Assembly (NCBI GenBank): GCA_012932865.1
Contig: SAXG01000017.1
Span: 825,317 to 889,316 of the forward strand
Source: Amylostereum areolatum
Taxonomy: Eukaryota; Basidiomycota; Agaricomycetes; Russulales; Stereaceae
Reading direction: 5' to 3'
Length of the DNA stretch: 64,000 bases
Shown: positions 4,150 to 34,025 of the stretch, piece by piece
How the letters are laid out: each line of letters opens with the position of its first letter
Position numbering within the stretch: the first letter of the stretch is position 1
Program-made: the position numbers and the translations under genes
Notes under the pieces: model-generated
The model's database searches: none
Seen by the model: the letters and a program-made list of their open reading frames with translations, nothing else
Told to the model about the DNA's origin: nothing

Positions 4150-4704
4150 TGTGACGACGGAGTCAATCACGTGCCGACAACAACAACAACACACAACAAA
4201 ATAAGAAAGAAACTCGGAGTCAACCTCCTCGAGTGCGACTACACAGGTCAGCGCGCGAAGCCGCAGGGGTACTACTTAGGCACTGCAAACGACTAGTCCA
4301 AAGACCAAGTTTAGCATTAGTCGCAGTTCTAAGATACAGTAGAAACACTGCTTACCTAGTCCAAAGACCAAGAGGTCGAGATGAGGACTAGGCTCGCTAC
4401 ATGCACTCCTTTTATACTACTAGGGTGACCCACTTCAGAGCCCCTTGACCCACATAATATCCTAAGTACAGTAATCGTATTCTACCAATCCTGTGCGCTG
4501 ATTCTATGCTGTGCGTGTAAGCGGAGTTCCAAAGTCCGAAATCAGGTGATACGTCATGTGAAGAGAAACACGTGCTTAGTCACGTGACCAACCCAGCCAT
4601 AATCCCTAGTCCAAAACAATGTCCTTCCCCTGTCGTAACAAAAATGAAAAGGGCGTAAGTCCCTTTGAGGAAAAAGATAGGGGCTATTGACGCGTGTCGT
4701 CACA
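4150..4704 (-). mobile_element. Solo LTR, family F
   Basis: This is a 555-bp LTR with a 9-bp terminal inverted repeat (TGTGACGAC...GTCGTCACA), flanked by a perfect 5-bp duplication GATGC (4,145-4,149 and 4,705-4,709). It is closely similar to the LTRs at 43,299-43,850 and 53,140-53,696. Its transcription orientation is minus, inferred from the F element. It probably formed by LTR-LTR recombination that removed an internal region. Confidence 0.93.
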
Positions 4705-16453: not shown

Positions 16454-17112
16454 GAAAGGTGTGTCTTTCCCAATTGAGCCAGTTGACCCTGTGTCCGACT
16501 TCAGTGAGGAATTTTTGGAGTTCTGCGACGTTGAGTATAGCCGCTACGCTAGCTTCCGGAATTGTCGAAGAAGTCTGACCTCCCGTTCCTCCATCTCGGT
16601 CGAGAGCGTTAGGTACCTCGAGTCTAGCTGAAGGAGTTCTTCGTTGAGCATCTTGATGTGATTCTCCAAGATATTCTGGACGTCGGCCGACTCCCTCCTG
16701 AGGTCGTCGATCTGTTCCCTGGCCTGCTCGAGCGCTACTCCGGCTATCATGTGGGCTATCTGACTTCCTAGTATCGGAGAATCGGGCGGTGGGACTTCCG
16801 TCGCTCCGGGCGACGGGGATCGCATTAGCACCTGTGAGGAATCCGGGTGCTTCAGTTAGGGTTCTTCTGTGTGCTTCTAAGCGGCTTACCCCTTGTCCTT
16901 CCGTCTGGTCCTGACCTAGACGGAGAAGGTACTGACTTAATTGCGAGGATTGCTGCCGATCGAGCGATGAAGCAGTCTCCGCAGAGGGCTCGTTCCTGTT
17001 GAGTGTGGTGTACCTTGTTGCAGACGAGGCGGAGGCGGTCGATTGTTCCATTGCTGGGTGTGATGATTGGATTGGTAGTGGAATTGTTGGCTGTGTTTGG
17101 GGTGGTGGACAT
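16425..17112 (-). CDS. Element D extra gene with probable 58-bp intron
   Basis: Two overlapping frames are open on the minus strand. A textbook intron (16,889-16,832: GTAAGC, CTAAC branch site, CACAG) joins them in two ways. Path 1 starts at 17,112 (MSTTPNTANN...), has a Cys-rich stretch 'RALCGDCFIARS' and ends '...ERHTFRAAYEGEIL'. Path 2 starts at 17,051 (MEQSTASASS...) and yields a clear coiled coil ('ALEQAREQIDDLRRESADV', 'MLNEELLQLDSRYL') ending at 16,544. A TATA-like GGATAAAAA lies about 40 bp before 17,112. The gene overlaps the pol 3' end. Function is unknown, and I cannot decide between the paths. Confidence 0.5.
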
Positions 17113-19267
17113 TGGTGATCTGTCTCGTTGAACCCATAGGGTTTTTATCCCCTCTTCGTTGGCAGTGCATTCGCCTGAATGGTGTTGAGTCTGACCAGTG
17201 TTTTGCTTTCGTCTTACGTTTCTTTCGTCGTGCTGGCCTTTGCTTTTGCTGTGCTACGGTGATCTCGTCGACATCAGTAGATTCTGTGTCGGTATCTTTG
17301 ATTGGCTGTGGTAGTGACCTCGGTGCTTTAGGGTTATTCCGGTGGAACTCTGCAATCACAGTTTTTGATCCTTCGAGATTTGATGCGGGTTCCCATGTGT
17401 TACCGGAGTCTGGGTAGCCTTTCCATTTTACGAAGTAGTGTAATGGTTTGGAATACCATTTGTCTAGTTTTGAGGCTATTATTGTTTCTACTTCATAGAG
17501 TTCTTCATCGTTTACTGGTTCCGGAGGCGGTTTTTTGTAAGCTTCGCCATATTGTTCTGTCTCTTTGAACGGAATTAATAGTGCCACGTGAAAGACTGGG
17601 TGTATTTTCCATTTTGTTGGTAGTTCCAGGCGATAGGTTACTGGTCCTATAACTTTTTCAATTTTGAACGGGCCAAACCGTTTTGGTGCTAGCTTGGTTT
17701 TCGGGTATACCGTGTTAAGATTTTTTCCGTCTAACCACACTTGGTCGCCCTGTTTGAGTTGATCTCGTAGTGTGAACATTTGATCATGCTGCATTTTCAT
17801 CAATTTGGCAGCTATTTCCAGACTTGCTTCTGTGTTGTCCCATGCGTTCTTAAAGTTCTTTATTCTTTCTTCGGCTGTCGGTATTCGCGGATCGGTTGGT
17901 ATTGTTGGGTTGAAAACCGGTTGGTATCCATGTAGGAGTTCAAATGGGGACGTTTTTGTAACTGAATGTTGTCGTATGTTGTGTGCGAATTCCGCTTTTG
18001 GTAAAAGTTTTGCCCAATTTGTTTGATCTCCGTTGCAAAATGCTCGAAGATATTGTTCTAATTCTTGATTCACCCTTTCTGTCTCGCCGTCTGTTTGGGG
18101 ATGGTACGCCGTCCTGAGTGATGAGATAATTCCAAGGCTTTCGCAAATGGATTGGAATACTTTGGATGTGAATTGAGGACCTCTGTCTGATATCATTCTT
18201 TTCCACAGTCCGAATCGTCTGTAGACGTTGTCGATCAGAAGATCAGCTGTTTCTTCTGCGTTGATTGCCTTTAGGCACGGTGTGAATACTGCGGTTTTGG
18301 TGAACCTGTCGACGACTACGTTGATCACATCAAATCCATTGGAGATCGGAAGATCTGTGATGAAATCTGATGTGATCGTTTCCCATGGTCGTTTTGGTAT
18401 TTCTGTAGGTTGTAATGGATGTTTTGCCGGATGTGTGACATTTTTTGTTGACTGGCATACGGGGCATCCTTGAACGTAGCCTTTTACGAAGGAAATCATC
18501 TTTGGCCACCAAAAGTTTCTTTGTACCAGTTCTAGAGTTTTCATTTCGCCTGGATGTCCAATTGTCTGGAGATCATGATGCGATTTTAGGATCATGCGTT
18601 GAAGTTCAAGATTCTGTGGTACGTAGATCTTTCCTTTTCTGATGACCAAATCGTTCTCAAAGTTCCAATCTTGAATTCCTTTTGCCAGGGTACGTGGTCC
18701 CAATCTTTTGATCGTATCTAGCGCTGTCCAGACTTCATCATCTAGATGTGAGAAGTTCCTTAGTTCCTTGAGAAGTTCTTTATCTCCGACTGCTTCGACT
18801 GTTCCCCTTCCGGTGGCTCTAGCCTTGAATATCGAAGGATGGAGTAGGATTTGTTCGTCGTTGTCTGGAATGTCTTCTTTATGATCTGATCTTCTAGAAA
18901 GTCCGTCTGCTTTATTTGTACTTCCTGGTTTGTGCACCAGGGTGTAGTCGAAGCGGGACAGATACAAGCTCCATCGTGCTTGCCGTCGATTAAGTTTCTA
19001 AGCTGTTGTAAAATATTCTAGATTTTTATGATCTGTCCAGATTTCGATCTTGTAGTTTGCTCCTTCTAGATAGTGTCGCCAGTGCTCTAGGGCTTTTACT
19101 ACTCCTAGAAGTTCTTTGTCGTATATCTCGTAATTCTGTTCCGCAGGTGACAGTGATTTGGACAGGTACGCGACCGAGTGCCATCTTTCGGTCTCGTCTG
19201 GTTGTGATAGAATAGCTCTGTACGCGAAATTGGAGGCATCACTTTCTATACGGAATGGTTTGTTTTC

Positions 19268-19476
19268 TGTTGAAAACACAGAGGGACCTTCAGTCATAAA
19301 GTGAAACACAAAGTAGACTGGCCGGGGATTGAACCCAGGACCTCCCATATTCTAGAAGGGTGCTCTAACCAACTGAGCTACCTGTCCGATAGTGGGAACA
19401 GGTTGGTAGTTGAGATAGAGGATATCACCGAGCTCTGATTGTGTGCAACAGGCCAGGGCTTAGCCTTATTTCAACA
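19268..19476 (-). mobile_element. tRNA-bearing mini-LTR, copy M1
   Basis: This 209-bp unit is bounded by TGTTGAAA...TTTCAACA (8-bp inverted ends) and flanked by the 5-bp duplication TTTTC (19,263-19,267 and 19,477-19,481). It interrupts RNase H of element D. The same 209-bp unit occurs at 30,772 and 33,812 with different duplications. It carries one tRNA-like gene and no ORF. Confidence 0.92.
19315..19387 (-). tRNA. tRNA-like gene in M1
   Basis: 73 nt fold as a cloverleaf. Acceptor GGACAGG/CCAGTCT (two imperfect pairs), D arm GCTC-AGTTGGTTA-GAGC, anticodon arm CCCTT-CTAGAAT-ATGGG (one mismatch), variable loop AGGTC, T arm CTGGG-TTCAATC-CCCGG. The anticodon by position is AGA (Ser), yet the long variable arm of tRNA-Ser is missing, so no isotype is assigned. 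CCA is not encoded. Confidence 0.7.
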
Positions 19477-20552
19477 TTTTCGTCAGGCATGATCAAGACT
19501 GGGGACAACGTGAATTCGTGTTTCAGTCTTTCAAAGGTCTGTTCACATTTGGCCGTCCAGTTCCAGTCATGGTCCTTCTTAGTGAGCTGGAATAGTGGTC
19601 TTGCGATCTTAGAATAGTCTTTGATGAAGTGTCGATAGAAATTTCCAAATCCGAGAAATGATTGAACTTCTTTTACTTTTCTCGGTGTGGGCCATTCGGA
19701 TAGTCCTTGAACTCTGATCGGGTCCATCTGTACCTTGTTATGTGTGATTATCACGCCTAGGTATTCGATTGATGGTTGTTCGAAGAAGCACTTTTCTGGT
19801 TTCAGGAACAGATCGTTTCGTTCCAGGAGTTGAAGGGTTTCGTTCATTAGTTTTCTATGTTCGTCAAGTGTTTCTGTGAATATTAATATGTCATCCATGT
19901 ATACCACTACCTTTCCTGTGTCTATTAATTCTTTGAACAGTGCGTTCATCATTGCTTGGAATGTTGCGGGCGAGTTGGTCAGTCCGAAGAACATTACCAT
20001 TGGTTCCAACAGGCCCCTGTTTGTTTTGAACGCCGCTTTCCATTGATCCCCTTCCTTGATCCGAACATTGTTGTATCCCCATCAAAGATCGAGCTGTGAG
20101 AAGATCTTAGTGCCTTTTAATTTGTCGATGAGATCTGAGATGAGAGGGATCGGGTATTCATTTTTTACTGTGATGGAGTTGAGATAGCGATAGCCCTGTA
20201 CTGGTCGAAGAGATCCATCTTTCTTTTTGATAAAAAAGAAGGGCAATGATATCTCTGACTTTGATTCTCGGATGTACCCTTTTCGTAGATGTTCGTCTAC
20301 AAATGTGTCCAGTTCCTTCCGTTCTGGTACTGTCATTGGATATAGTTTACAGTTTCGAGGTTTCCATCCTTCGATCAGGTCTATCGCATGATCCCAGGGT
20401 CTACTGATTGGAAAGTGTTCCGACACTTTCTTTTTGAATACCTTCTGATACTGTTTGTAATTGGGCGGAATCATCTCATCGAGTGTCTTCTTCTTCTCTC
20501 CCATGGCCGCTTTTTCTGCGAGTTCTTGTGCTTTAGTTGCTCTTGCTATTAT

Positions 20553-21230
20553 CTAGGTATTGGGTTCGTTCATTTCTTCTGTAACCGGTATCGTTTCTAT
20601 GTTAGTCTTTCCATGGAACGTTCTGACTATCTTGATCTCGACGAGATCGGAATCAAATTCGGGGTCTTCTTGTTCTTCTATCGTTACATGATAGTTTACC
20701 TTTTGTTCTTTAAATGCTTGTAGGAAGGGTTCGTCTTTTCCTTGGACAATCATCATTTTACTTGTAGTGGAGCACATACCTGGACATTTTTGTAGTGTAA
20801 TCTGTCTCTTTCTCCAATCAATGTTAGGATTGTGTTTTCTGAGCCAAGGGGTTCCTAAGATTACTTCGTCTCCTCCTAGAGCTGTGACGAATAATCCTGA
20901 GTTTTCGCGGTGAACTTCTCCGTGGGTCCCTCTCATTGTCATCGGAAGGTACACTTTCTGTTTGATTTCTCCCAAAGTGTTTCGAGACCCATCAATGTTG
21001 TATATCAGTATCGGCTTCTTAAGCTGGATTGGATTCATCTTGTGTTTTTGTACGAGATCTGGATGGATCAGGGTACTGCTTGCTCCGCTATCTAGTAGCG
21101 CTTTTGCTGCGGCTTTACGGAACTTTCCATGAAACATAACAGGTATATGAATTGATGGAGTGTGTGTTGCTCCGTCTTGGTATGACCTTATATACACTGT
21201 TCTATTTACGTCATCTTCTGTTTCCTGCAC
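20553..21230 (-). CDS. Element D aspartic protease region
   Basis: The retropepsin-like domain reads 'AAAKALLDSGASSTLIHPDL' (catalytic DSGA near residue 47) and 'VILGTPWLRKHNPNIDWRK', the flap-distal motif of Ty3 proteases. Its role is cleavage of the Gag-Pol precursor. It lies between gag and RT. A TAG after '...MNEPNT', where related elements would probably encode W, separates it from the RT frame (next residues IIARATKAQEL). Confidence 0.85.
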   Translation of the reverse strand: MQETEDDVNRTVYIRSYQDGATHTPSIHIPVMFHGKFRKAAAKALLDSGASSTLIHPDLVQKHKMNPIQLKKPILIYNIDGSRNTLGEIKQKVYLPMTMRGTHGEVHRENSGLFVTALGGDEVILGTPWLRKHNPNIDWRKRQITLQKCPGMCSTTSKMMIVQGKDEPFLQAFKEQKVNYHVTIEEQEDPEFDSDLVEIKIVRTFHGKTNIETIPVTEEMNEPNT

Positions 21231-21412
21231 AGGAGATTGACTTGAAAAGTTTATTGTCTGTGTCCTTTCAACAGCCGCGTTTGAAGGACAATTTAAAAAC
21301 CCTGATTGTCCTTGAAAATGTTGGCAGTGCGTGCAAACGTTTTGCTGTCCATCTTACTCACAAGCTCGGTGATCTGATCAATCGGGGATTCTTCTGATGT
21401 TAGATTCGCTGT

Positions 21413-23344
21413 TCATGCATTGATCGTTGTTTGGGTGCGCTTCTCTGGGCAGTTCCTAGAGATGTGTCCTGGCTTTCGGCAGTAGAAGCACGATCCTGAT
21501 TTCTGGAGTTCTGTGCGTTCTTGGGGGGTAAGGTGTCTGAAATTTCGGCCGTTACTTCCTGTTTGGGCGACTCTGGCGGCTGCAACGTTCCCTCTATTTC
21601 TGTTCCCTCTTTTGAATAGAACGTACGTCTGTGGTTTCTTGTACAGGAGTGTGAGATCGCTCGTCGGGTTCATTGGTCTTGTGTAATGCCGTTGGAATGC
21701 TTGAGCCTCTCGCCAGTACCGTTCGTCAATGTCGTTCGAGATGTGATCTCTTTTGAGGATCTTGACTACGATATCGTTATGTAGTCCTCTCTTGAATTGG
21801 TCGATCAATGCTTTATGATCGTAACCGGCTTCCATTGCATAGTCTCTGAAGATCGTGATATAATCTTTGGTTTCTATGGTACCTTGTTCCAGTCGTTGTA
21901 TGTTGAATCTAGCGTCTCTTCCTGGGTCTATTTCTCCAAAGGTTTCTAGGAAGTAGTCACGGAACGCTGTCCATGTAAGGTATCCTTCCGGATTTAGACC
22001 GTGGTCTCGTATTTTGTCGATCTTACTTATTAAAAGGGACGCCCAGTGGAGGGCAGGTCCATCGGTAAGATGCGAGAGTACGAAGGTTATCTTACGCATA
22101 TTGGCAGCATATGCGTTTGGGAACGCTATGAAGCGAAGTACACATTGTTCTATGAATTTTGCTGCTTTTGCCCGATCCCTTCCGTCGTATACTCCTAATG
22201 CATTCAGTTTAAATTCTTTATCCTTATCTTCGGGTTTTGATTCAGTTGTTCCTGTTCCTCTCGGCGGGGAATCTCTTGGTGGGTGTCTCGATCCTTTCGG
22301 AAGATCCGCGGTTGCTCCTCTTCCGAAGACGTAGTTTCGGACTCTTTTCCTTTCTTGTCATCCGGTGCTCTGGGCGATAGATCGGAATGCGGTGATCGTG
22401 ATCGTGATGGTGACCTTTCCCGCCTTCTTGGTTCTCCGGTCATGCCAAATCCTCGTAATGGTGACATTTTCCACCTTCTTGATTCGGCCATGCCAAATCC
22501 TAGGGGGAATCAAGTCTCATGTCCCAGTCTTGCAGGATCGGCTGGTGTTGGAGTTGCAGGCGTCTGGCGCGGTACATTAGTCTCTCCAGGTGGGACATTG
22601 TCAAGTGCGGTGGCGGGGTTGGGTATTGAGGTGATAATATCTCCCATTGATGTGATGTTCTTGGGGTCTCCGAATAGATTTCCTCTTCTTCCTTGTCTGG
22701 TCCTGAAGATGTCGTCGTTTGATGCAAGTGATGGAGATCTTGTCGGGTTCTTTGTATGTTCTTTCGTTTCTGCTATGCTCGATGGCTGCGCTTTCGACTT
22801 CTTCCGGAATCGGACTTAGTTTGGTTGCTCGATATAGCTCTCTCAGGTTCTGGTGCGGTTTCCTCTGGAGGCGGTGCAGCTGTTGCGGTTTCTTGAGGAT
22901 GCTGGAGTTCGGTTCGAGGGCTCTGTGGTTTGGTTGTCGTATCGGCTGTGTCGGTATCTGGATCAAATTCCCAGTAGTCCTTAATGTTCCCGGTGTAAGG
23001 TTTCTCTTCGACTTTCTGTGCGTCTGGGTGTTTCCAGAGTTCTTCTGATGAGAGGGGCCCGATATGAGGTCTTGAATAATCTGGGCGTTTCCAGTGTGAG
23101 TTGTCGTAGTTTCCGTCTTCTTTTTCCCTTTTTGATCTGTCTTTGTAGTATTCTGCTGCCGGGGGAAGGTTGTATCTGTATATGGGTGGGTTCCACTGAT
23201 ATTCGTATGTCCCCTTGCTTTCTTTCGCAATGAGGACTCCGTCGTAGTAGAGAAGGAGATAATAGGGATCAAATGTCTAGTGATGATCTTCTTTTCCGTT
23301 GGGAAAATCTCGTTTACAGTTTGATTGGAGATGAGGGATCTCAA
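21413..23344 (-). pseudogene. Element D gag, frameshifted
   Basis: The 3' part (22,099-21,413) is a clear capsid/nucleocapsid: 'FVLSHLTDGPALHWASLL', 'WTAFRDYFLETFGEIDP', 'RLEQGTIETKDYITIFRDYA' and a zinc knuckle 'CFYCRKPGHISRNC' (CX2CX4HX4C). Further upstream is an acidic/RS-rich part ('RRRERSPSRSRSPHSDLS', 22,204-22,491) and an N-terminal domain near 23,260-22,950 ('YYDGVLIAKESKGTYEYQW', 'WKRPDYSRPHIGPLSSEEL'). Stops near 22,500 and 22,770 and changes of frame break the gene. Confidence 0.75.
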
Positions 23345-23445
23345 AGTCTGATGGTCTTTTTTCAGCGGGTTGTTCCGCTGGCTCCGTGGTGGTTATTTTG
23401 TTTGGCGCTCTGCGCCAAACTGTAGGGTGAGCTAGTGTAGAGGAG

Positions 23446-23455
23446 AGCTCGTTCT
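23446..23455 (-). promoter_or_regulatory. Self-priming PBS of element D
   Basis: Two bases after the 5' LTR (minus strand) is AGAACGAGCT, the exact complement of AGCTCGTTCT at 29,648-29,639 in the LTR, which lies 34 bp downstream of the TATAAAA at 29,682-29,676. Confidence 0.8.
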
Positions 23456-23457
23456 AG

Positions 23458-23653
23458 TGTTAAGGACGGTCCTTATCACGTGACAAGCAACTCAGGCTAC
23501 AGTACTCTTTACGCGTGAGAAGTGGGATCAGGTGATCCAGACGTCTCGGTTGTACGAAGGCTAAGGTCGATAAGAGAAGCAGTAAGTCTTCACGGAAGAC
23601 TTAGGCGAGCTTTCGACTTTATTTGCTTTAAGTTCTCTCTAGTATTCTTTAAG
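23458..23653 (-). repeat. 5' LTR of element D, part 1
   Basis: 196 bp of the LTR up to and including one copy of the copia target duplication TTAAG (23,649-23,653). Together with 29,601-29,875 it makes exactly 471 bp, equal to the 3' LTR. Confidence 0.95.
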
Positions 23654-24101
23654 TGTTGAAGATATTCCTTTATGTCTGATTTCTACGCCTTTATTCTGTT
23701 CTATCTCCGTTCTATTCGCTTCTATTCCGCTCCATTCACCCTATTATCGCGTCATTCCGCATCTATACCCTCACATGCCCTCTCCACTTCACCCACTGTT
23801 CGCTATTGTACTGTACTTACTGTAGTTCAGCCCGAGCCTTCCCTAGCTTCAGTTTCGAGTTAGTTACCGCTTTAGGTCGATTCTCGGCTTATTCCGAGTT
23901 TCCTCCCACGCTCCATGGCCTCTACCTGCAGCCACACGCGTCTGCTCCTCCTCAGTCGCTCATTCTGTGCTGCAGGTATGCCCTTTGCTTGTTTCTGTCT
24001 TGTTTCTCAGTCGCTCATTCTGTGCTGCAGCAATCCACTGTTTGTGTCAGTTCTGAGCGTCCCTAGCTAGTTGGCTAGCCCCTTCAACTGCGACTTCAAC
24101 A
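23654..24101 (+). repeat. 5' LTR of copia
   Basis: TGTTGAAGATATTCC...CGACTTCAACA with 8-bp inverted ends (TGTTGAAG/CTTCAACA). A 19-bp word (CAGTCGCTCATTCTGTGCTG) is repeated twice inside it. Confidence 0.96.
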
Positions 24102-24113
24102 GGTTATGGGCCC
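24102..24113 (+). promoter_or_regulatory. Copia primer-binding site (half-tRNA iMet type)
   Basis: GGTTATGGGCCC begins directly after the LTR. It is the complement of the anticodon stem-loop of initiator tRNA-Met (GGGCCCATAACC, anticodon CAU). The next bases (TGCGCTC) extend the match to a typical fungal iMet. Drosophila copia uses the same internal, half-tRNA priming. Confidence 0.8.
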
Positions 24114-24808
24114 TGCGCTCTAGCCAACACCCATCACTTTTATCTCGCCTCACAGCACCCCCCTCGCCTCGTCCTTCTACACACCTCTCCTACCATCCCT
24201 AGAGGCCCCAGCCCTCGAGTTTCGAGTCGAACGACCCATCCGTTGCCTCCCAACACCATCCCCATCCTCCAGGGCGCGCATTTCGCAACATCAAGCGCGC
24301 ACGCAACGACCCTTCATCCGTTCGCCTCGCCCTTGCATATTCCGCACCTACTACTCCCTATCTAGCTTCGTGCCAAGCCCCAAGTCCGTCGCTTTCGTTG
24401 TTGTGCCTCCACAGCCTGCGACGCTTCCTCCTCCTCCTCCCACCAACATCAAAGGCGTCCTCAGCGCCCCTTCGACCGTTTGCTCCCTCGCTTCGCGTCA
24501 GCCCTCCCTACCACCCTACCTACCCCCTCGCCAAACGCGGTAGCCCTCGCTGAAGCCGTTCGCCCTCAGGAGCTCGTTGTCTGCAGGAGGCTGTTTCGAG
24601 AAATTTTCACCTTGGGATCGGACGAGTGTAGCTCCCCATCGCGTTGTGCTATCGGTACGCGCTCTTCAGGCCTCCATCTAGACCATCCACCCTCCCCATC
24701 GCCGTCGTAACCGCCCCCATCGCCCTATCCCTTCGCCCTCGGCGCCCCCTCGAACCTCTGCTCGTCCAAATCGTCGCTTTTTGCGCATATCCTCTCCAAT
24801 TCCTCATT

Positions 24809-27800
24809 ATGTCCGACTCTATCCCCAAAATCGACGCTCTCACCGGCCACAACTACAAGGACTGGTCCAACGAGGTGCTGGCCTGGCTCCAGACCAAGGG
24901 CTGGGACGCTGTAGTGCTGGGGGAGACGTCCAAGCCGGCGGATACTGCTGCTGCCGCCCTCAAGGAGTACACCTCGATCTGCTCCAAGGCTGGGGGTGCG
25001 ATTTACCTCCTCATCTCCAAGGACCAGCGAGGTCCTGTGGACGACCTTAGGCGCGACGCCCCTGCTATGTGGACGAAGCTCGAGGCGTTGCACGTCAAGA
25101 AGGCGCCTGGCGCGCGCTTCAACGCGTATGACGACCTCTTCAATGTCCGCAAGAAGGAGGACGAGTCCCTGCTCGCTATGGCGACGCGAGTGGACGATGC
25201 TATGCGTCGCATTCGCTCGCTTCGCCCTGCGTCTCTCACCCTCGAGGAGCTCGACAAGGAGCTCACCACCATGGCGTACATCCGCGCCCTGCCCTCGGAG
25301 TACTCCTCCTTCGTCTCCTCCCTCCTCCTGCTCGAGAAGCTCGACCCCGACAGCGTCAAGGACGCGTTTGTGCGCGAGGAGACCAACAGGGAGCGCAACC
25401 CCGAGTTCTTCAAGCCGGACGCCTCGTCTGCGCTCAGTGCGTCGTCCTCTGGCGCGTCTGGCAAGGCCAAGGGGCAGTCCTCGCGTCCACGTCTCACTTG
25501 CGTGTTCTGCAAGAAGAGCGGGCACGAGGAGAAGACCTGCTACCAGAAGCAGATCAAGGACCTGCGTTCTCGCCTTGGGGACAAGGCCAACGCCGCGTCG
25601 TCGTCGTCTGACGGCTTCAACCCTGCTGGCGAACACGCTGGCAGCGCTGCATCCGCAAGTGTCGCTCCTTCCGACCCCCTCTCGCCGCTGCAGCTCGATG
25701 CTGACGTCGATTGGAATGCAGACACCGGCGCCACGTCTCATATGACCCCGCATCGCCACTTCTTCGCCTCCTACCGTCCCCTTCGCACGCCCATTTGCCT
25801 CGCAGACGGAAAGACGGTGTACAGTGCAGGAGTCGGCTCAGTGGTGTTCAATCCGGTTGTAGCAGGAAAGGCGCAGGGCGCCGTCGAGTTTACTAGAGTC
25901 CTCCATGTTCCCCATCTTCGCAATAATCTCCTCTCTGTCCTCTACCTTGCGAAGCATAAGGCGTTCGTCGTCACCATCAAGGGGAGCCGCGTCTCTTTCG
26001 CTAAGGACGGCGCAGTGTGGTTCACTGCAACGATCAACGACGCGAACACCGCCTATCTCGATGGTTCCACCTCTACAGCGTCGCACTACGCCCTATCCAC
26101 CGCGCTCGCCGCCTCTACGCCTCTCGACGCGTCCCTATGGCACCGCCGCCTTGCGCACTTCAACCACACCGGTCTCCAGCGCATAGTGCGGGAGAACCCC
26201 GTCACTGGTCTCGTCTTCAACTCGTTAGAGAAGCCCGACCCTATCTGCGAGCCCTGCCTCGCTGGCAAGATGCATGCCGACCCGTTCCCCTCCTCTGCCA
26301 CCGTCTACACAAAGCGCCTCGCCCTCGTCCACTCCGACCTGCATGGCCCGCTTCCAGTCCGCACCGCCTCTGGCTATCGCTACTGGGTCCTCTACATCGA
26401 CGCCGCCTCGCGTTTCTACGCCGTCTACCTGCTTCGCAAGAAGTCGGAGCAGTACGAAGCGTTCAAGGACTTCAAAGCGTGGGCCGAGAAGCAGACAGGC
26501 GAGAAGCTGCTCGCGCTGCAGGACGACAAGGGGGGCGAATACATGGGTCGCAACATGGACGAGTTCTGTTCGCTGCACGGGATCGAGCGCCGTCATACGA
26601 CGCGCAATTGCCCTCAGCAGAACGGCGTAGCGGAGCGTGCAAATCGCACCATTGAGGAGGGCGTCACCGCGATGCTTGCGGAGTCCGGCCTGCCTGCGTC
26701 TTTCTGGGGAGAAGCGCTCAGTGCCTACATCCACGTCCGCAATCGCCTTCCCACCGCCGCTATCAAGGCGCACACCACGCCCTTCGAGCTCTGGCACGGG
26801 TCCAAGCCGGATGTGAGTCGTCTGCGCGTGTGGGGATGCACCGCGTACGTCCACATCCAGCACGACAAGCGCAAGGGCCTGCAGCCGCACATGGTGAAGG
26901 CCGCCTTCATCGGGTACCCGGAGGGGTACAAAGGCTGGAAGTTCTGGGACCCTATAGCGAAGAAGGTCATCATTTGCGAGCGCGCCGACTTTGACGAGCG
27001 CGATTTCCCTCGCTCCAGGCTCAACAAGCCGCTCCTGCCCTCGCCTTCCGCTCCCCTCTTCCCTCCTCCGCCTCCATCGGAGCCTGCTCCCTCTCAGCCG
27101 GTGCTGGATGCCGGGGGAGACGACAACTCGTCCTCTGCTGAGCAAGACGAGCCTGATCTGCCTCCAGCTCCGCCTGCTGATGAGCACGAGCATGATGTCG
27201 ATCAGGATGCGGCCGATCCCGCTCCTGCGCCGCCTGCAGCCGATCCTGCACCTCCCTCTCCACATGCGGGTCCTTCGCGGCCTGCTCCTCGAGGGAGGAA
27301 GCGCGCCGCCTCGCCCACCGGTCCTCTGCACCGTAGCACGCGCGACGCCGTGGTCAAGGCGCGATCGAACAGCTGGCAGCCTCAGCCAGTGCCCTCCAAG
27401 GCGAAGGTGCGCGAGCCGCTTCCTGCAGTCGAATCCGACGAGGAGGACGCTCATAGCGACTCTCCTGAGCCGTGGGCGAATGACGACGTCTACTTTGCGC
27501 AGGAGACACCTGAGGCCGCCTTTGCCATCCATACCGCCCTCGAGACCGCCCTGCTATCCGCAGACGGCGAGCCGCTCTCCTACAGGCAGGCTATGCAGCG
27601 TCCGGACGCGGAAATGTGGCTTGCAGCGTGCAGAGAGGAGCTCGACGCGCATGCAGCCAATGGCACCTGGGCTATCGCCTCTCTCCCTCCTGGCGCGCAC
27701 GCTGTCGCATCGCGCTGGGTATTCAAGGTCAAGCGCAAGGAGGACGGCTCCATCGAGCGCTACAAGGCGCGCGTCGTCGCCAAGGGCTTTGCCCAGCGTC

Positions 27801-29128
27801 CTGGCTTCGACTACTTCGAGACCTTCGCTCCCACTGCCAAGTTCCAGGCCATTCGCACTGTCCTTGCCCTCGCCGCCGTCGAGGATCTCCACCTGCGCTC
27901 CATCGACATCTCCCATGCCTTCATCAATGGCGACCTCGATGCGGAGGTCTACATGAAGCAGCCTGAGGGCTTCGAGGAGGGTCCTCCTGGCGCGGTCTGC
28001 AAGCTGCAGAAGTCGATCTACGGCCTCAAGCAGGCCGCTCGCCTGTGGAAGATCAAGCTGATGGAGGTCCTGTGCGACAAGATGGGATTCCGCTGCATCT
28101 ACAGCGACGCGTCAATCTACGTGCTCCAGCGCGACGCTGTGCGCGTTCTCCTCCCTGTCTTCGTTGACGATGGGACCTTAGCGTCGAATTCGGAGCCTGT
28201 TCTCGACGAGATCATCGCCACTCTTCGCACGCACTTCAAGCTGCGAGATCTCGGCCCCACCTCCTTCCTCCTCGGCATCCACATCACTCGAGACCGCTCT
28301 CTGCGCACCCTCTTCCTCTCCCAGCGCCAGTACATCGTCGACACGCTTGCACGCTACAACCATGCCGACTGCCACCCTGTCACCACGCCCATGCTTCCTG
28401 GCTCGCGTCTGACGAAGGCTATGTCGCCCCAGAACGCGTCGGAGCACGCATTCATGCAGAAGGTGCCCTATGGCAGCGCCGTCGGCTCCCTGCTCTACAT
28501 CGCGACTGCTACCCGTCCAGACATCGCCTACACCGTCTCCAACCTGTGCCGCTTCATCTCGGACCCAGGTCCTCAGCATTGGCGCGCCGTCCAGCATCTG
28601 TTCAAGTACCTCCAGGGTACGAAGGACTTGAAGCTCGTGTACAGGCCGAGCGACGACTCCGAGCTGTTCACCACCTTCACGGACTCGGACCACGGCGGAA
28701 ACGTCGACAATGGCCGCTCCACAGGCGGGTATCTCGTCCGCATTGGTTCTGGCGCTGTCAGCTGGAGCTCTCGCCTCCAATCGCTCGTCGCACAGTCGAC
28801 GACCGAGGCGGAGTACATTGCTGCCGTCGAGGCTGGCAAGGAGATCGTCTGGATGCGCAACCTGCTCTCTGAGTTTGGATACACAGTCGAGGGCGCGTCG
28901 CTCCTGTACTCGGACAATCAGTCGTCTATCAACGTCTCGAAGAATCCCGAGCATCATGGACGCATGAAGCACCTCGACCTGCGCTTCTACTGGCTGCGAG
29001 ACGAAGTGGAAGCCGGCCGGATTGTTCTCAAGTTTGTGGGGACAAACGAGATGCCGGCCGACATCCTGACGAAGGCGCTGCCTCGGGAGCGCGTTGTGCG
29101 CTGCAGGGAGATGATGGGACTCGAGTAG
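24809..29128 (+). CDS. Ty1/copia Gag-Pol polyprotein, 1,439 aa
   Basis: The ORF is open from 24,644, but the start at 24,809 (MSDSIPKIDALTGHNYKDW) matches copia Gag N-termini. In order: Gag, about 1-220; zinc knuckle 'CVFCKKSGHEEKTC' near 231-244; protease 'WNADTGATSHM' near 303; integrase zinc site 'HRRLAHFNHTGLQ...CEPCLAGK' near 445-485; core with 'LVHSDLHGPL', 'LQDDKGGEYMG' and 'QQNGVAERANRTIEE'; a Pro/Glu/Asp-rich linker; RT ('WVFKVKRKEDG', 'DISHAFINGDLDAEV', catalytic 'FVDDG' near 1,119, F in place of Y); RNase H ('FTDSDHGG' near 1,291, 'TEAEYIAAVEA', 'DNQSSI'). No break was seen. Encapsidation, reverse transcription and integration should all be encoded. Confidence 0.95.
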   Translation: MSDSIPKIDALTGHNYKDWSNEVLAWLQTKGWDAVVLGETSKPADTAAAALKEYTSICSKAGGAIYLLISKDQRGPVDDLRRDAPAMWTKLEALHVKKAPGARFNAYDDLFNVRKKEDESLLAMATRVDDAMRRIRSLRPASLTLEELDKELTTMAYIRALPSEYSSFVSSLLLLEKLDPDSVKDAFVREETNRERNPEFFKPDASSALSASSSGASGKAKGQSSRPRLTCVFCKKSGHEEKTCYQKQIKDLRSRLGDKANAASSSSDGFNPAGEHAGSAASASVAPSDPLSPLQLDADVDWNADTGATSHMTPHRHFFASYRPLRTPICLADGKTVYSAGVGSVVFNPVVAGKAQGAVEFTRVLHVPHLRNNLLSVLYLAKHKAFVVTIKGSRVSFAKDGAVWFTATINDANTAYLDGSTSTASHYALSTALAASTPLDASLWHRRLAHFNHTGLQRIVRENPVTGLVFNSLEKPDPICEPCLAGKMHADPFPSSATVYTKRLALVHSDLHGPLPVRTASGYRYWVLYIDAASRFYAVYLLRKKSEQYEAFKDFKAWAEKQTGEKLLALQDDKGGEYMGRNMDEFCSLHGIERRHTTRNCPQQNGVAERANRTIEEGVTAMLAESGLPASFWGEALSAYIHVRNRLPTAAIKAHTTPFELWHGSKPDVSRLRVWGCTAYVHIQHDKRKGLQPHMVKAAFIGYPEGYKGWKFWDPIAKKVIICERADFDERDFPRSRLNKPLLPSPSAPLFPPPPPSEPAPSQPVLDAGGDDNSSSAEQDEPDLPPAPPADEHEHDVDQDAADPAPAPPAADPAPPSPHAGPSRPAPRGRKRAASPTGPLHRSTRDAVVKARSNSWQPQPVPSKAKVREPLPAVESDEEDAHSDSPEPWANDDVYFAQETPEAAFAIHTALETALLSADGEPLSYRQAMQRPDAEMWLAACREELDAHAANGTWAIASLPPGAHAVASRWVFKVKRKEDGSIERYKARVVAKGFAQRPGFDYFETFAPTAKFQAIRTVLALAAVEDLHLRSIDISHAFINGDLDAEVYMKQPEGFEEGPPGAVCKLQKSIYGLKQAARLWKIKLMEVLCDKMGFRCIYSDASIYVLQRDAVRVLLPVFVDDGTLASNSEPVLDEIIATLRTHFKLRDLGPTSFLLGIHITRDRSLRTLFLSQRQYIVDTLARYNHADCHPVTTPMLPGSRLTKAMSPQNASEHAFMQKVPYGSAVGSLLYIATATRPDIAYTVSNLCRFISDPGPQHWRAVQHLFKYLQGTKDLKLVYRPSDDSELFTTFTDSDHGGNVDNGRSTGGYLVRIGSGAVSWSSRLQSLVAQSTTEAEYIAAVEAGKEIVWMRNLLSEFGYTVEGASLLYSDNQSSINVSKNPEHHGRMKHLDLRFYWLRDEVEAGRIVLKFVGTNEMPADILTKALPRERVVRCREMMGLE

Positions 29129-29140
29129 GCGTCTCATCAC

Positions 29141-29147
29141 GGGGGAG
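29141..29147 (+). promoter_or_regulatory. Copia polypurine tract
   Basis: GGGGGAG directly precedes the 3' LTR, the position of the plus-strand primer. Confidence 0.75.
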
Positions 29148-29595
29148 TGTTGAAGATATTCCTTTATGTCTGATTTCTACGCCTTTATTCCGTTCTATCT
29201 CCATTCTATTCGCTTCTATTCCGCTCCATTCACCCTATTATCGCGTCATTCCGCATCTATACCCTCACATGCCCTCTCCACTTCACCCACTGTTCGCTAT
29301 TGTACTGTACTTACTGTAGTTCAGCCCGAGCCTTCCCTAGCTTCAGTTTCGAGTTAGTTACCGCTTTAGGTCGATTCTCGGCTTATTCCGAGTTTCCTCC
29401 CACGCTCCATGGCCTCTACCTGCAGCCACACGCGTCTGCTCCTCCTCAGTCGCTCATTCTGTGCTGCAGGTATGCCCTTTGCTTGTTTCTGTCTTGTTTC
29501 TCAGTCGCTCATTCTGTGCTGCAGCAATCCACTGTTTGTGTCAGTTCTGAGCGTCCCTAGCTAGTTGGCTAGCCCCTTCAACTGCGACTTCAACA
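29148..29595 (+). repeat. 3' LTR of copia
   Basis: 448 bp, almost identical to the 5' copy. Confidence 0.96.
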
Positions 29596-29875
29596 TTAAG
29601 AGGAGGTTCTTATTTAGAACAGTCCTGTATCTACAAAGAGAACGAGCTGGGGAATAGCTCGTTCGTTGAGCCTCCTTTTATAAGAAAGGAGATCGAGTAA
29701 ATATATGTACATTTAGTAACGGTCGCAGCAGGTATCCGTGGGGACGCGACTGGGGCACAGTCGTGGCTGCGTCGTCGAGATGGTTATGAGCTGGGGCACA
29801 GTCGTAATCCGTTGTTTAGCGACGTCCTTCCTTATAAGGCAATAGGAAATGGAATACCTTGATCGAGTTGTAACA
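29596..29875 (-). repeat. 5' LTR of element D, part 2
   Basis: It begins with the second TTAAG duplication and ends GAGTTGTAACA, followed by the element's TSD GAGGG. It holds the TATA box (29,676-29,682) and the predicted transcript start (29,648). Confidence 0.95.
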
Positions 29876-29880
29876 GAGGG

Positions 29881-30771
29881 TGTGCGTGCATGGAGGCACA
29901 CGTGGATGGCGCGTGGGGAATGCACAGGGGAGGGAGCACATTGAGGGTGGGGGGTGGGGGTGTTGAGGGCGAGTACAAGTGCTGAGGACCCGGGCATGGA
30001 TGTGGTGTCGAGAGTGGGGTGTGCCCATTGCGATGGGCACGCGTGCGTTGCAGACACTGGCACACAGGTATTGAGCACATGAGTGTGTGGGCGAGGGCAT
30101 TGAAGGTGTGCAGGCACACGGGCACGTGGACACGTATGTGTAGAGGGTGCGTGGGTGGTAACATATCGTAGATACTACACACGCGATCACTATGTATGTA
30201 GGGGCTTCGGAAGGGTGTGCCTGGCGCATGATCGTGCGACGGCTGGGCGGTGGCAGCAGTAGCAGCAGAGGTGGCGGTGGCAGAGGTGGCAAATTGGTGT
30301 GATAGAAGGGGGATGGGGAAAGAAGGGGGGTGCATGGGCGCACAGCTTGAGGGTGTGGGTGCAGGCGCAAGCATCAAGGGTAAGGGCGCAGGCGTGCGCA
30401 GAGGTTAGTGGCGAGGATACGCGAGGTGCGGGTGGCTTGAGGGCCTGGGCCTGGGTGGCTTGAGGGCCTGGGTGGCTTGAGGGTGCGCAGCCGTGGTCAT
30501 TGAGGGCATGGGCGTGGAGGGCTCGAGGGCGTGGAAGGCTTGAGGGTGTGGAGAGCTTGAGGGTTTGAGCGTGGGGGGCTCAAGGGCACGGGTGTGAAGG
30601 GCTGCAGGGCGTAGGTGCAGACGGCTTGAGGACGCGCAGGCACAGTCATTGAGGGGGGAGAAAGGTGGGCGTGGAGGGAGGGCGGGCGGTGCGTGGGTGA
30701 GCGGGCGCGTAGGCCAGCGGAGGTGGTAGAGGCGGTGGAGGGTGTGCAAGGAGAGTGTGCAAAGGGGAGAG
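29881..30771 (+). repeat. G-rich degenerate minisatellite
   Basis: This continues repeat R-b. The plus strand is G-rich with words such as GGCTTGAGGGCGTGGG, most regular at 30,420-30,640. Long minus-strand ORFs (Pro/His/Thr-rich) reflect composition. No gene is supported. Confidence 0.55.
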
Positions 30772-30980
30772 TGTTGAAATAAGGCTAAGCCCTGGCCTGT
30801 TGCACACAATCAGAGCTCAGTGATATCCTCTATATCAACTACCAACCTGTTCCCGCTATCGGACAGGTAGCTCAGTTGGTTAGGGCACCCTTCTAGAATA
30901 TGGGAGGTCCTAGGGTCAATCCCCAGCCAGTCCACTTTGTGTTTCACTTTATGACTGAAGGTCCCTCTGTGTTTTCAACA
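30772..30980 (+). mobile_element. tRNA-bearing mini-LTR, copy M2
   Basis: 209 bp, TGTTGAAATAAGG...GTTTTCAACA, with TSD GAGAG (30,767-30,771 and 30,981-30,985). Orientation is opposite to M1 and M3. It lies in the G-rich repeat. Confidence 0.92.
30861..30933 (+). tRNA. tRNA-like gene in M2, mutated
   Basis: Same 73-nt cloverleaf as M1, but with changes in the D stem (GAGC to GGGC) and the T loop (TTCAATC to GTCAATC), so the B box is damaged. The anticodon position is again AGA. Confidence 0.6.
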
Positions 30981-30985
30981 GAGAG

Positions 30986-31696
30986 ATGGGTGGGCACGGA
31001 GGTGTATTGGGTGTGTGGGCATGGGCAAGAGTGAGGGCAGGAGTGGCGATGGTGTCGTCACTATGAGTGATGACACCGCCGCTGAAGCGAGGAAGGCGGG
31101 CGAGGAAGGTGGTGGAGGCGGTAGAGGCGGTGGTGGCAACGGCAGCGGACGATGAGGATGAGGATGAGGATGAAAAAAAAGGTGACAAGTCACCAGAACC
31201 CAGATATCCCACAGGTCTGATGACACAGCAACCAATCAGAGTACCTGGACCGGCACACCGGCTGGCCACGGGTATTCAACGGGTACCTTTACAGGTTACC
31301 TGTTGTCTGAAATGGCCTACTCGTACTCTCACGGGTATTTCGGCAATGGATACTCGTATCCACGGATGCCGATACCTGTAGATGTGCCTGACGAGTACTT
31401 GAATGGGTACTCACGAGTTTTTATACTCATGAAGAGCTCTGGTTGAAGGTGCGAGGGTGGGTGAAGGTGTTGGTGTGCGCAGAGAGGGCACGGATGCGGG
31501 CGCGCATTGACGGAGACAAGTGCACCTAGGTGTCAAGGGCACAGACGCGCGGATGTTGATGGTGTTGATGGCACGGGTGCTTCGACGGACAGGTGACAAG
31601 AGGACAAGAAGGGAAAGGTGGAGGAAGACGAGTTGATGATGTGTCACATCTCAGCACTTGCTGAGGTGCCAGTCGCTCATATACGTGGCTTGGTGA
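30986..31696 (+). repeat. Low-complexity DNA with GATGAG microsatellite and GGGTA cluster
   Basis: 31,150-31,172 is a (GATGAG)n tract. 31,265-31,430 holds many GGGTA(C/T) or TACCC words on both strands, including short palindromes such as GGATACTCGTATCC. No gene is supported. Confidence 0.45.
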
Positions 31697-31754
31697 GATC
31701 ATGACATATTTTCTGCTTGCATTCTGAAATGCGAGCAGAAAATACATCATGTTC
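31697..31754. repeat. Near-perfect palindrome H2
   Basis: The outer arms GATCATGACATATTTT / AAAATACATCATGTTC nearly equal those of H1. The inner arms CTGCTTGCATTC / GAAATGCGAGCAG differ from H1 but still pair with each other. Confidence 0.85.
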
Positions 31755-32089
31755 TTGGCAGCCTCTCCCTCACCCTTTCCCCCTTCTTCTCCCTCACCGT
31801 ATCCCCCTCCTTCCCCCCTCTCGCCTACTCACCCGCCCGCTTGCTCACCTGCACACTTGCTCACTCAAATGCTAGAAGTGCACGCACATGCCTGAACTCG
31901 TGCTCAGCCGCTCCCATGCACTGAACGACCTTCTGTAGGCAGGCCGGTGACTCCGCTCTCTCCTTCACTCACATCTCCCACCCTCGCCCTTGCCTTCGGT
32001 GTCGCTGTTGCCTACTGCCCTCACTCACCACCCTCGCCCACCACCATCACTCACTACCCACCCTCCGCTCCCCGACGTCGAGCACGCTC
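31755..32089. other. C-rich stretch without gene
   Basis: Pyrimidine-rich, 'CCCTCACC'-type words. Nothing else is visible. Confidence 0.4.
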
Positions 32090-32138
32090 AGGCAAGAATG
32101 CCATCAACTGCTGCACATGATTGATGGCATTCTCGCCT
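32090..32138. repeat. Palindrome H3
   Basis: Arms AGGCAAGAATGCCATCAA and TTGATGGCATTCTCGCCT (17 of 18 pair) flank a 13-base loop. It lies 2 bp from H4. Confidence 0.85.
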
Positions 32139-32140
32139 CC

Positions 32141-32205
32141 ACATGCTATAATGTTTTCTGGAGCCCGCTTTCATTAAGCGGGCTCTGGAAAACATCATAG
32201 CATGT
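32141..32205. repeat. Palindrome H4
   Basis: Arms ACATGCTATAATGTTTTC + TGGAGCCCGCTT pair with AAGCGGGCTC + TGGAAAACATCATAGCATGT at about 28 of 30 positions. Same general design as H1/H2: AT-rich outer arm, GC-rich inner arm, tiny loop. Confidence 0.85.
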
Positions 32206-32523
32206 GCATGTATGTGTCCACTGCCCCCGTATGCACACACGCCTGTCCACAATGCACCCGCCCATGCTCAACGTGCCCGCCCGTAACGCCCACACCCGCT
32301 CACAACCCGCAGGCCCACAATGCCTGCACGCAACCTGCACACTCGTTGTGCAACTCTGCACCTGCTTGACGTGCACTCACCGCCACGTGCCACACCCTCA
32401 CTGCCACGTGCCCACCACCTGTCTTCTGCCCTCTATCCTCACGTCAAATGGCACACCCGCACGCGCACTCCCACGCTCAATGCACCCATCCACGCTCAAC
32501 GCACTTGCATGCAACCCGCACGC
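32206..32523 (+). other. C-rich low-complexity stretch
   Basis: Plus strand rich in CACGC and TGCACCC words, similar in style to 1,900-2,320. No gene is supported. Confidence 0.4.
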
Positions 32524-32829
32524 TGTCAAGAATAACTGACTAAGGAATGCATCCAATAGCCTTCTAAGTCGTGACACAGGCAGTGGCTCAGAGGAAGGGG
32601 AAATCGGGGAACAAGGGAGAAACAGTACATTACACTCTAAGCTAGTAAAGACTAGGAGGAAAGACTAAGGAACTAGATACATGCAGGCCAGCTATATATA
32701 CCAGAGAGGGGATGTGCACAGACCAAGGGGCACATCAGTGATGCCATCAAAGGAGATTGATCTACAGGTGTGAGATCAGATAGCACGAGAAAGTAGTGAA
32801 AAAGCGGAGCAAAAGGGCGAGCTGTGACA
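32524..32829 (-). mobile_element. Solo LTR, family E, copy 1
   Basis: 306 bp, TGTCAAGAATAACTG...GAGCTGTGACA, with perfect TSD CACGC (32,519-32,523 and 32,830-32,834). It is the reverse complement of 39,238-39,543. Confidence 0.93.
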
Positions 32830-32834
32830 CACGC

Positions 32835-33806
32835 CCGCATGCCTGCCACACGCTCAGAACACGAGTGAGTCCCCTTCACCTGCACCTGTACATTGCACTC
32901 TCGCCCGCGCCACCTCGCTCCCTCACCTTGCGCCTGCGGAGCATGCTCTCACCCTCACCCTCGCCTGCGCTCATGCCTTCACCCACGCTCCTCCATGCCC
33001 TCGCCCGTACCTCTTTCCCTCGCCCGCACCTCTTGCCCTCGCCCGCACCTCTCACCCTCGCCCTTTCCAGCATACCCTGCCCTCTTCCTCGCCATCTCCC
33101 GCCCTCACCCGCACCTACGGTCCATGTCCGTGCCACCTCTTGCCCACCCATGCCCTCCTCCGTCTTGTGGAGTCGGGCGGGGATGTCATCACTCACGCAA
33201 GTGGTGTCATCCTCGCCTGCTTGCATCCGCTACTTTGCCCCCGCCTTCGCGTCGTGCCCATGACTTCACGCCCGGCCACCATTGCCCGCGCATTGCGCGG
33301 GCACATTAGTTGGGAGTGTATGTGTCATTCAAGCATTGTCAACATGGGTGAAGGGACCAGGATGCAGGAAGAGCGGGGGCGGGGGCGGCCTGTATGAGAA
33401 GACTAGGTGGGGACAAGGGTGAAGGAAGGATGAGGGGGTGCGTGCGTGTCGAACAAAACTCGGTGGTTGCCAGGTGGTTGTCTGAGGAGAGCATCAACAG
33501 GAGTGAGATTTATATAGTTCGAAAAAATTTGACCGAGACTGTAGCCAAGAAGAATAGAAGAATAGAGATATTCCTGTGTAATCAAATGTCTGTGTTAAGA
33601 CTGTATGAGATGGAGAGGAAAGAACCTATGTAGGGTGGAATGGTTGTGGGACCCGCCTTATTGACAGTTGTAAGAAAATTTGTAGGAAACCTTCACAAAA
33701 AATGTAGTAGGGGTTGTATATAAGTGTACAAGTTGATATAAATCGGATTGTATCGGATTAACCCTAACCTTAACCGTCTGAGTGTCACAAATCGTCGTGC
33801 CTCTCC
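32835..33806. other. Gene-free stretch
   Basis: 32,840-33,230 is C-rich with 'CTCGCCC' words. 33,300-33,600 is mixed. 33,600-33,790 is AT-rich and contains one short telomere-like run TTAACCCTAACCTTAACC at about 33,757, too short to call a telomere tract. No gene is supported. Confidence 0.4.
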
Positions 33807-33811
33807 CAAAA

Positions 33812-34020
33812 TGTTGAAAACACAGAGGGACCTTCAGTCATAAAGTGAAACACAAAGTGGACTGGCCGGGGATTGAACCCAGGACCTCCCATATTCTAGA
33901 AGGGTGCTCTAACCAACTGAGCTACCTGTCCGATAGTGGGAACAGGTTGGTAGTTGATATAGAGAATATCACCGAGCTCTGATTGTGTGCAACAGGCCAG
34001 GGCTTAGCCTTATTTCAACA
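33812..34020 (-). mobile_element. tRNA-bearing mini-LTR, copy M3
   Basis: 209 bp with the same ends as M1, TSD CAAAA (33,807-33,811 and 34,021-34,025). Ty3 pol sequence of element B1 begins about 30 bp beyond it. Confidence 0.92.
33859..33931 (-). tRNA. tRNA-like gene in M3
   Basis: Best preserved copy: acceptor GGACAGG/CCAGTCC with one mismatch, intact A and B boxes (GGTTCAATCCC), anticodon position AGA, short variable loop, A as discriminator base. Internal boxes would suit RNA polymerase III. Whether it is charged or used in translation is unknown. Confidence 0.7.
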
Positions 34021-34025
34021 CAAAA

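Follow-up and report, generated by a model that had tools for sequence, protein, structure and literature searches.

A 503-bp non-autonomous retrotransposon with predicted RNA polymerase III promoters in its long terminal repeats is very likely the source of tRNA-bearing 209-bp units in Amylostereum areolatum

RESULTS

The 209-bp units and their two-LTR relatives

The DNA stretch of 64,000 nucleotides analyzed here (the window) lies on contig SAXG01000017.1 (positions 825,317 to 889,316; contig C76 below) of the Amylostereum areolatum assembly GCA_012932865.1, which comprises 57 Mb in 182 contigs. Three units of 209 bp, each with a tRNA-like sequence, are located at 19268..19476 (minus strand; tRNA-like part 19313-19387), 30772..30980 (plus strand; tRNA-like part 30861-30935) and 33812..34020 (minus strand; tRNA-like part 33857..33931). 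All three share the termini TGTTGAAA...TTTCAACA and are enclosed by three different perfect 5-bp target-site duplications (TSDs), namely TTTTC (19263-19267 and 19477-19481), GAGAG (30767-30771 and 30981-30985), and CAAAA (33807-33811 and 34021-34025). Positions, length, termini, and TSDs had been given in a first-pass annotation of the window and were all correct on re-reading. Compared with the 33812 unit, the 19268 unit has three changed positions; the 30772 unit is the most diverged of the three, with seven changes, including one in box B.

The first-pass annotation had proposed to search the genome with the 209-bp unit, and this search yielded further copies with distinct TSDs as well as pairs in direct orientation around a primer-binding site (PBS) and a polypurine tract. 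At least 73 matches were obtained genome-wide (40 of 118 candidates were scored), and many were paired at a distance of 294 bp, that is, as direct repeats around 85 bp. A tally of the 25 regions with listed matches and the window (229,824 bases) assigned 84 matches to 30 elements with two long terminal repeats (LTRs), 16 unpaired full-length LTRs, and five truncated items, two of which were merely cut by the edge of a region. The elements in this tally stem from the best-scored matches. Twenty-eight of the 30 two-LTR elements are 502-503 bp long; one measures 507 bp and one 498 bp, the latter with a nested copy interrupting its end. The two LTRs are identical in 26 of the 30, and the remaining four pairs differ at 2, 82, 111, and 152 positions in a gapless comparison. 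These four are presumably the elements deviating from 503 bp, in which small length changes or the nested copy shift the comparison. Among 80 nearly full-length LTRs, the sequence of the 33812 unit occurs without change in 61, this unit included.

According to a first pairing script, 31 of 33 internal sequences are one identical 85-mer; of the other two, one results from mis-pairing a solo LTR with a neighboring element, and the other is a stretch that the script delimited as 86 nt. The first 30 nt of the spacer were found 55 times in the genome with up to three mismatches (52 exact; reversed control 0), and 34 of these 55 spacers fall within the DNA of the tally. A 50-nt core of the tRNA-like part gave 166 matches genome-wide at the same tolerance (65 + 101; reversed control 0), of which the first 100 were listed with their places. 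Supposing two LTRs per spacer, approximately 56 units are estimated to be solo or truncated. The diversity may be greater among copies outside the tally, for example, on C100, C108, C134, C139, C148, C149, C158, and C165.

The two-LTR copies, the 5-bp TSDs, the uninterrupted insertion sites, the PBS, the G-rich tract, and the tRNA-like LTR, all read from the sequence, are the basis for interpreting the three window units as solo LTRs of a terminal-repeat retrotransposon in miniature (TRIM) with a tRNA-like promoter, an interpretation held with high confidence. The family would thus consist of a 503-bp non-autonomous LTR retrotransposon (LTR 209 bp, spacer 85 bp, LTR 209 bp), very probably of the Helenus kind discussed below. 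It is regarded as protein-less because 503 bp leave no room for a reverse transcriptase or an integrase. The LTR nature of the units and the integrase-type 5-bp TSDs, claimed in the first-pass annotation, were borne out by the two-LTR copies and the 5-bp duplications at their flanks. The element looks recently mobile in this fungus. An older unit at L013:1612-1803 (C96:473111-473302), which is 192 bp long and 85.6% identical, with a gap of 17 bp upstream of its tRNA-like part, indicates that the family history is longer than that of its young copies.

Primer-binding site, G-rich tract, and the copia element of the window

The spacer starts with TGGTAGCAGCACC, which is complementary over 13 of 13 nucleotides to the 3' end plus CCA of the host initiator tRNA-Met, and it ends in the G-rich tract ACGGGGGTG immediately before the 3' LTR (TGTTGAAA). 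The host tRNA-Met(CAT) gene is presumed to be the initiator because of its A1-T72 pair and the ATCGAAA T-loop. A search pattern for this tRNA gave six exact matches in the genome (control 3); four were fetched, and all four were called tRNA-Met(CAT). By the letters shown, the 13-nt PBS match is common to four of the six, and the two copies of a second variant match over 12 nt. Self-priming by the tRNA-like part of the LTR was rejected, since the longest complement between this part plus CCA and the initial 20 nt of the spacer is 4 nt, compared with 13 nt for the initiator tRNA-Met.

An intact copia element, a candidate helper, is located in the window at 23654..29595 (plus strand). Its LTRs (23654-24101 and 29148-29595) are 448 bp long and differ at two positions, and its TSD is TTAAG. 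The ORF (open reading frame) at 24644-29128 encodes 1494 amino acids with copia Gag, GAG-pre-integrase, and RVT_2 domains; the rve match reaches 22.1 bits, which is below the cut-off of Pfam. The PBS of this element, GGTTATGGGCCCTGCGC at 24102, matches the anticodon arm of the initiator tRNA-Met over 17 nt. Further parts of transposable elements are present in the window: an inverted part of a second copia copy at 10009-11692, 96-99% complementary to 26377-28075 and with a truncated reverse transcriptase match, and, at a distance of 300 bp from the 19268 unit, a 676-amino-acid ORF for a gypsy-type integrase with chromodomain at 16937-18967 (minus strand).

Mobilization of the units by the copia integrase had been suggested in the first-pass annotation. 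What supports this suggestion are the same TGTTGAA/TTCAACA ends, the 5-bp TSDs of both elements, and the similarity of the tract ACGGGGGTG|TGTTGAAA to the copia tract ACGGGGGAG|TGTTGAAG before the 3' LTR. In addition, both primer sites match one and the same tRNA, and the copia element appears young and has an open reading frame, its LTRs differing at only two of 448 positions. However, the two elements match separate parts of this tRNA with their primer sites, and the rve match is below the cut-off of Pfam. When the spacer and those parts of the LTR that are not tRNA-like were compared with 59 records (0.33 Mb), only two chance-level matches of 12 and 14 nt were found beyond the family itself. 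The presence of 12 of 31 TRIM insertions with perfect TSDs within the family of the intact copia copy indicates co-location, not help. The termini and the polypurine tract thus agree with the suggestion, whereas the primer-binding sites and the remaining sequence do not, and the copia family of the window as the direct helper is a plausible candidate that we nevertheless regard with some doubt.

Genome-wide searches were conducted for elements with the PBS of the TRIM, and TRIM and non-TRIM sites were told apart by the spacer positions. In each search, 55 sites belonged to the TRIM. TGGTAGCAGCACC occurred at 56 sites (exact; control 1) and CATGGTAGCAGC likewise at 56 (exact; control 16), each with one additional site known by position only. 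CATGGTAGCAGCACC gave 59 sites with up to one mismatch (control 7), the four additional ones being known by position only. With CAACATGGTAGCAGC, 57 sites were obtained at up to one mismatch (reversed control 9); the two non-TRIM sites belong to two copies of a single sequence, which agree fully over at least 910 bp, and self-comparison of one of the two 1.9-kb loci revealed no direct repeat. Hence, no autonomous element with the 13-nt PBS of the TRIM was found genome-wide among the examined sites, by an exact search that misses a diverged PBS. Either the helper is lost or unassembled, or its PBS is a different or diverged one, or the link between the two is a shared tRNA rather than a shared PBS. 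In line with the last option, the TRIM might exploit a copia helper without having its PBS, with the initiator tRNA-Met serving as primer for both, for copia through its anticodon arm and for the TRIM through its intact 3' end. We consider this possible, but rather unlikely.

The tRNA-like part as a predicted promoter

In the 33812 unit, the tRNA-like part occupies LTR positions 90-164 (33857..33931, minus strand). ARAGORN called a 75-nt tRNA-Ser(AGA) in all three window units, and the Rfam tRNA model (RF00005) reached its gathering score in two of them (56.1 bits at 33858-33931 in the 33812 unit), the 30772 unit remaining below. The "complete cloverleaf" of the first-pass annotation was confirmed as a tRNA-like sequence; "complete" is slightly too strong, as pairing by hand left the acceptor stem and the anticodon stem with one mismatch each. 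The internal RNA polymerase III (Pol III) boxes that it had listed are present: box A, TAGCTCAGTTGG, at LTR positions 97-108 (33913..33924, minus strand) and box B, GGTTCAATCCC, at positions 142-152 (33869..33879, minus strand). A TATA sequence at LTR positions 60-63 (33958..33961, minus strand) begins precisely 30 bases upstream of the point where the tRNA-like part starts. The sole T4 run of the LTR (positions 201-204; 33817..33820, minus strand) might serve as a weak Pol III stop. The assignment of these parts follows the general consensus sequences of both boxes and presumes a role of such a TATA in Pol III transcription and the leakiness of a T4 stop for Pol III in fungi.

Box A is kept in 78, box B in 77, and the 8-nt context of TATA in 77 of the 80 nearly full-length LTRs; in the 19268 unit, TATA is changed and thereby lost. 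The arrangement of boxes A and B with TATA at −30 suggests that each LTR carries a predicted Pol III promoter. Transcription of the template RNA by RNA polymerase II (Pol II), as in other LTR elements, would make the tRNA-like part a passenger or a barrier element. TATA is usable by Pol II as well, the T4 run lies inside the 5' LTR, and intact boxes in young copies may only reflect their youth. Nonetheless, we judge transcription by Pol II to be unlikely in view of the retention of both boxes in nearly all LTRs, the old, 86%-identical L013 copy, which has one change in box A and none in box B, and the conservation of both boxes in the Helenus families, as stated in the parts of their description used here (PMC10886601).

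Among 30 tRNA loci compared, one of which is a copy of the TRIM and many of which look mitochondrial, the closest to the tRNA-like part was a tRNA-Ile(AAT) with 70% identity. Repeated clusters of mitochondrial-looking tRNAs, some of them near contig ends, were noticed on C77, C85, C87, C140, C150, and C151 (L036-L038, L041, L042, and L052-L063). They are perhaps mitochondrial DNA inserted or misassembled into nuclear contigs.

Insertion sites and recombination between copies

Perfect 5-bp TSDs flank 27 of the 30 full elements (24 distinct flank pairs) and eight of the 16 unpaired LTRs, which results in 32 distinct flank pairs with perfect TSDs. In the 46 units and elements of full length, the match between the flanks spans exactly 5 bp in 35 cases, 4 bp in two, 3 bp in one, and 6-8 bp in none. 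For 36 elements, both flanks were joined, minus the second TSD copy where present, and compared with the 59 records. A related sequence running uninterrupted across the junction was found for 19 of the 36 sites, in 18 without a gap. In many cases, the matching sequence is another copy of a repeated target, and no match was demonstrated to be allelic. Of the window units, the 19268 unit has such a counterpart at L020:1202-1396 (86.7%) and the 33812 unit in L012 and L013 (86-88%); for the 30772 unit, none was found in the 59 records. A fragment of a KDZ transposase (L010:5300-5944) adjoins one of the solo LTRs and may point to a mushroom-type basidiomycete.

In one case (L030:7127-8127; C32:62626-63626), one TRIM has another nested in it at a distance of 5 bp from its end, and the inner (GTTTT) and the outer (GATAA) TSD are still readable. 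The full TRIM at C56:506669-507171 (L024:5670-6172) shares one 200-bp flank with the element at C56:491535-492037 and the other with that at C56:515351-515853, and by this exchange of flanks it is a product of recombination between copies. The LTRs at C96:533840-534048 and 535274-535482 (L012:2841-3049 and 4275-4483) are inverted relative to each other and have the flanks GTTTG/TGACA and CAAAC/TGTCA. Inverting the approximately 1.2 kb between them would restore perfect TSDs to both units, which fits a past inversion by LTR-LTR recombination. Several elements without matching TSDs suggest ectopic exchange.

Some observations weigh against the reading of the family as a Pol III-transcribed TRIM. 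Selecting elements by best score may overstate the uniformity. A perfect TSD is missing in three of the 30 full elements and in eight of the 16 unpaired LTRs; of these eight, two (L013 and L014) directly follow a spacer and are thus remnants of two-LTR elements, not solo LTRs, and four represent two sites duplicated on C1. Some copies are located in segmental duplications, such as C1:1632138-1633261 and 1643465-1644588 (L032 and L033), which contain the same inverted pair of full TRIMs with identical TSDs, 11,327 bp apart. The T4 run within the 5' LTR could halt Pol III ahead of the spacer. The AGA anticodon is combined with a body that has no long variable arm, in conflict with the fetched genomic tRNA-Ser(AGA) genes, which are 82-83 nt long and 53-56% identical to the tRNA-like part. 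Finally, folding of the tRNA-like RNA compared with shuffled sequences gave a z no better than −1.16, and the tRNA-like part is therefore read as a promoter, not as a tRNA.

Spread mainly through segmental duplication would explain the C1 pair, duplicated together with its flanks, the insertion common to L024 and L025 (TCATT), and the full element joining the left 200 bp and the right 200 bp of two insertions. As the main route, however, it is refuted by the 32 distinct flank pairs with perfect TSDs, and uninterrupted related sequences at 19 of 36 sites speak against it as well, so that we hold this explanation to be very improbable. The first-pass annotation had named a lack of further copies, or their confinement to segmental duplications, as evidence against its proposal; instead, further copies with distinct flank pairs were found. 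Ordinary tRNA genes, or a tRNA-derived short interspersed nuclear element spread by a long interspersed nuclear element, would account for boxes A and B and for the tRNA calls by two programs, but are extremely improbable given the TG...CA ends and their 8-bp terminal inverted repeat, the fixed length of the TSDs, the two-LTR copies with PBS, G-rich tract, and identical LTR pairs, and the fact that none of the three window units ends in a visible A-rich tail.

DISCUSSION

The first-pass annotation had compared the units with the plant TRIM Cassandra, and this analogy holds in that the promoter of a small-RNA gene lies within the LTRs of a TRIM. The "new class" it expected is already known, as elements of the same kind, including fungal ones, were published in 2024 as Helenus (Kojima, 2024; PMC10886601). 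In the matches listed for the literature since 2024, the name was found only in that publication. According to the parts of it considered here, Helenus elements are TRIMs with tRNA-like LTRs in fungi, animals, and plants, 311-1263 bp long, with conserved boxes A and B, and mostly not working tRNAs; the tRNA calls were made with tRNAscan-SE, and Pol III transcription was not validated (PMC10886601). The fungal members, from Pucciniales and three Agaricomycetes, have 5-bp TSDs. Their presumed helper is copia, argued from similar PBSs, partly across related species. The majority of them and several copia families prime on an anticodon arm, as the window copia does by its PBS, and some fungal Helenus prime on the 3' end of the initiator tRNA-Met (PMC10886601).

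The A. areolatum element has two short tRNA-like LTRs with boxes A and B in common with Helenus as there described, as well as the lack of proteins, a length within the range, PBS and polypurine tract, 5-bp TSDs, solo LTRs, copia-type features, and an inflating effect on tRNA gene counts. The conflict between the AGA anticodon and the body on which it sits, as in a sequence that is not a working tRNA, and the lack of complementarity between the tRNA-like part and the element's own PBS (longest stretch 4 nt) are further likenesses. It differs in that the PBS likeness to copia, which serves the argument for the helper and does not define Helenus, was not found here, with no autonomous element seen to carry an identical 13-nt PBS, and in that the word "TATA" does not occur in the searched text of the publication, whereas TATA is located at −30 in our element. 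As this likeness was judged by the published description, the family may be undescribed or already listed. On this comparison, we are strongly inclined to regard the element as a young-looking member of Helenus that is new or at least newly characterized.

Other small LTR elements are more distant, as far as the consulted parts of their descriptions go. The plant TRIM with 5S rRNA sequences (PMC7215508) also has a small-RNA gene promoter inside both LTRs, but differs by the use of 5S rRNA instead of tRNA, its plant hosts, another PBS, and long tandem arrays. Ajax, a nemertean TRIM with part of the 5S rRNA (PMC10886601), has a presumed Pol III promoter and a 5-bp TSD, but is 5S-derived, resides in an animal, and uses a tRNA-Leu primer. 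The TRIMs of Boletales (PMC5689174) are non-coding miniature LTR elements of mushroom-forming fungi, too; a tRNA-like LTR is not mentioned in the part of that source considered.

For a Helenus-type TRIM in A. areolatum, the following life cycle can be envisaged. Within the 5' LTR, Pol III would start close to the tRNA-like part, read through the weak T4 run near the end of this LTR and through the spacer, and stop at or after the T4 run of the 3' LTR. The resulting RNA would measure approximately 0.4 kb, with a terminal repeat (R) extending from the tRNA-like start to the T4 run. This RNA might be packaged into the particle of a helper, where the initiator tRNA-Met would prime the minus strand and the G-rich tract the plus strand. 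Integration by the integrase of the helper would generate the 5-bp duplications, and recombination between the two LTRs could then leave solo units like the three in the window.

Many of the 166 tRNA-like cores may inflate the tRNA counts of this genome. With dozens of near-identical copies at clear insertion sites, the activity of the element and its Pol III transcription are testable in living cultures, and because its PBS does not agree with the one used by the resident copia, the choice of a helper by such elements becomes a testable question. If the TRIM indeed exploits copia through a shared tRNA, the packaging of the initiator tRNA-Met by the helper, and not an identical PBS, would link parasite and helper, and the TRIM would use one tRNA as its primer and the decayed remains of another as a TATA-assisted promoter.

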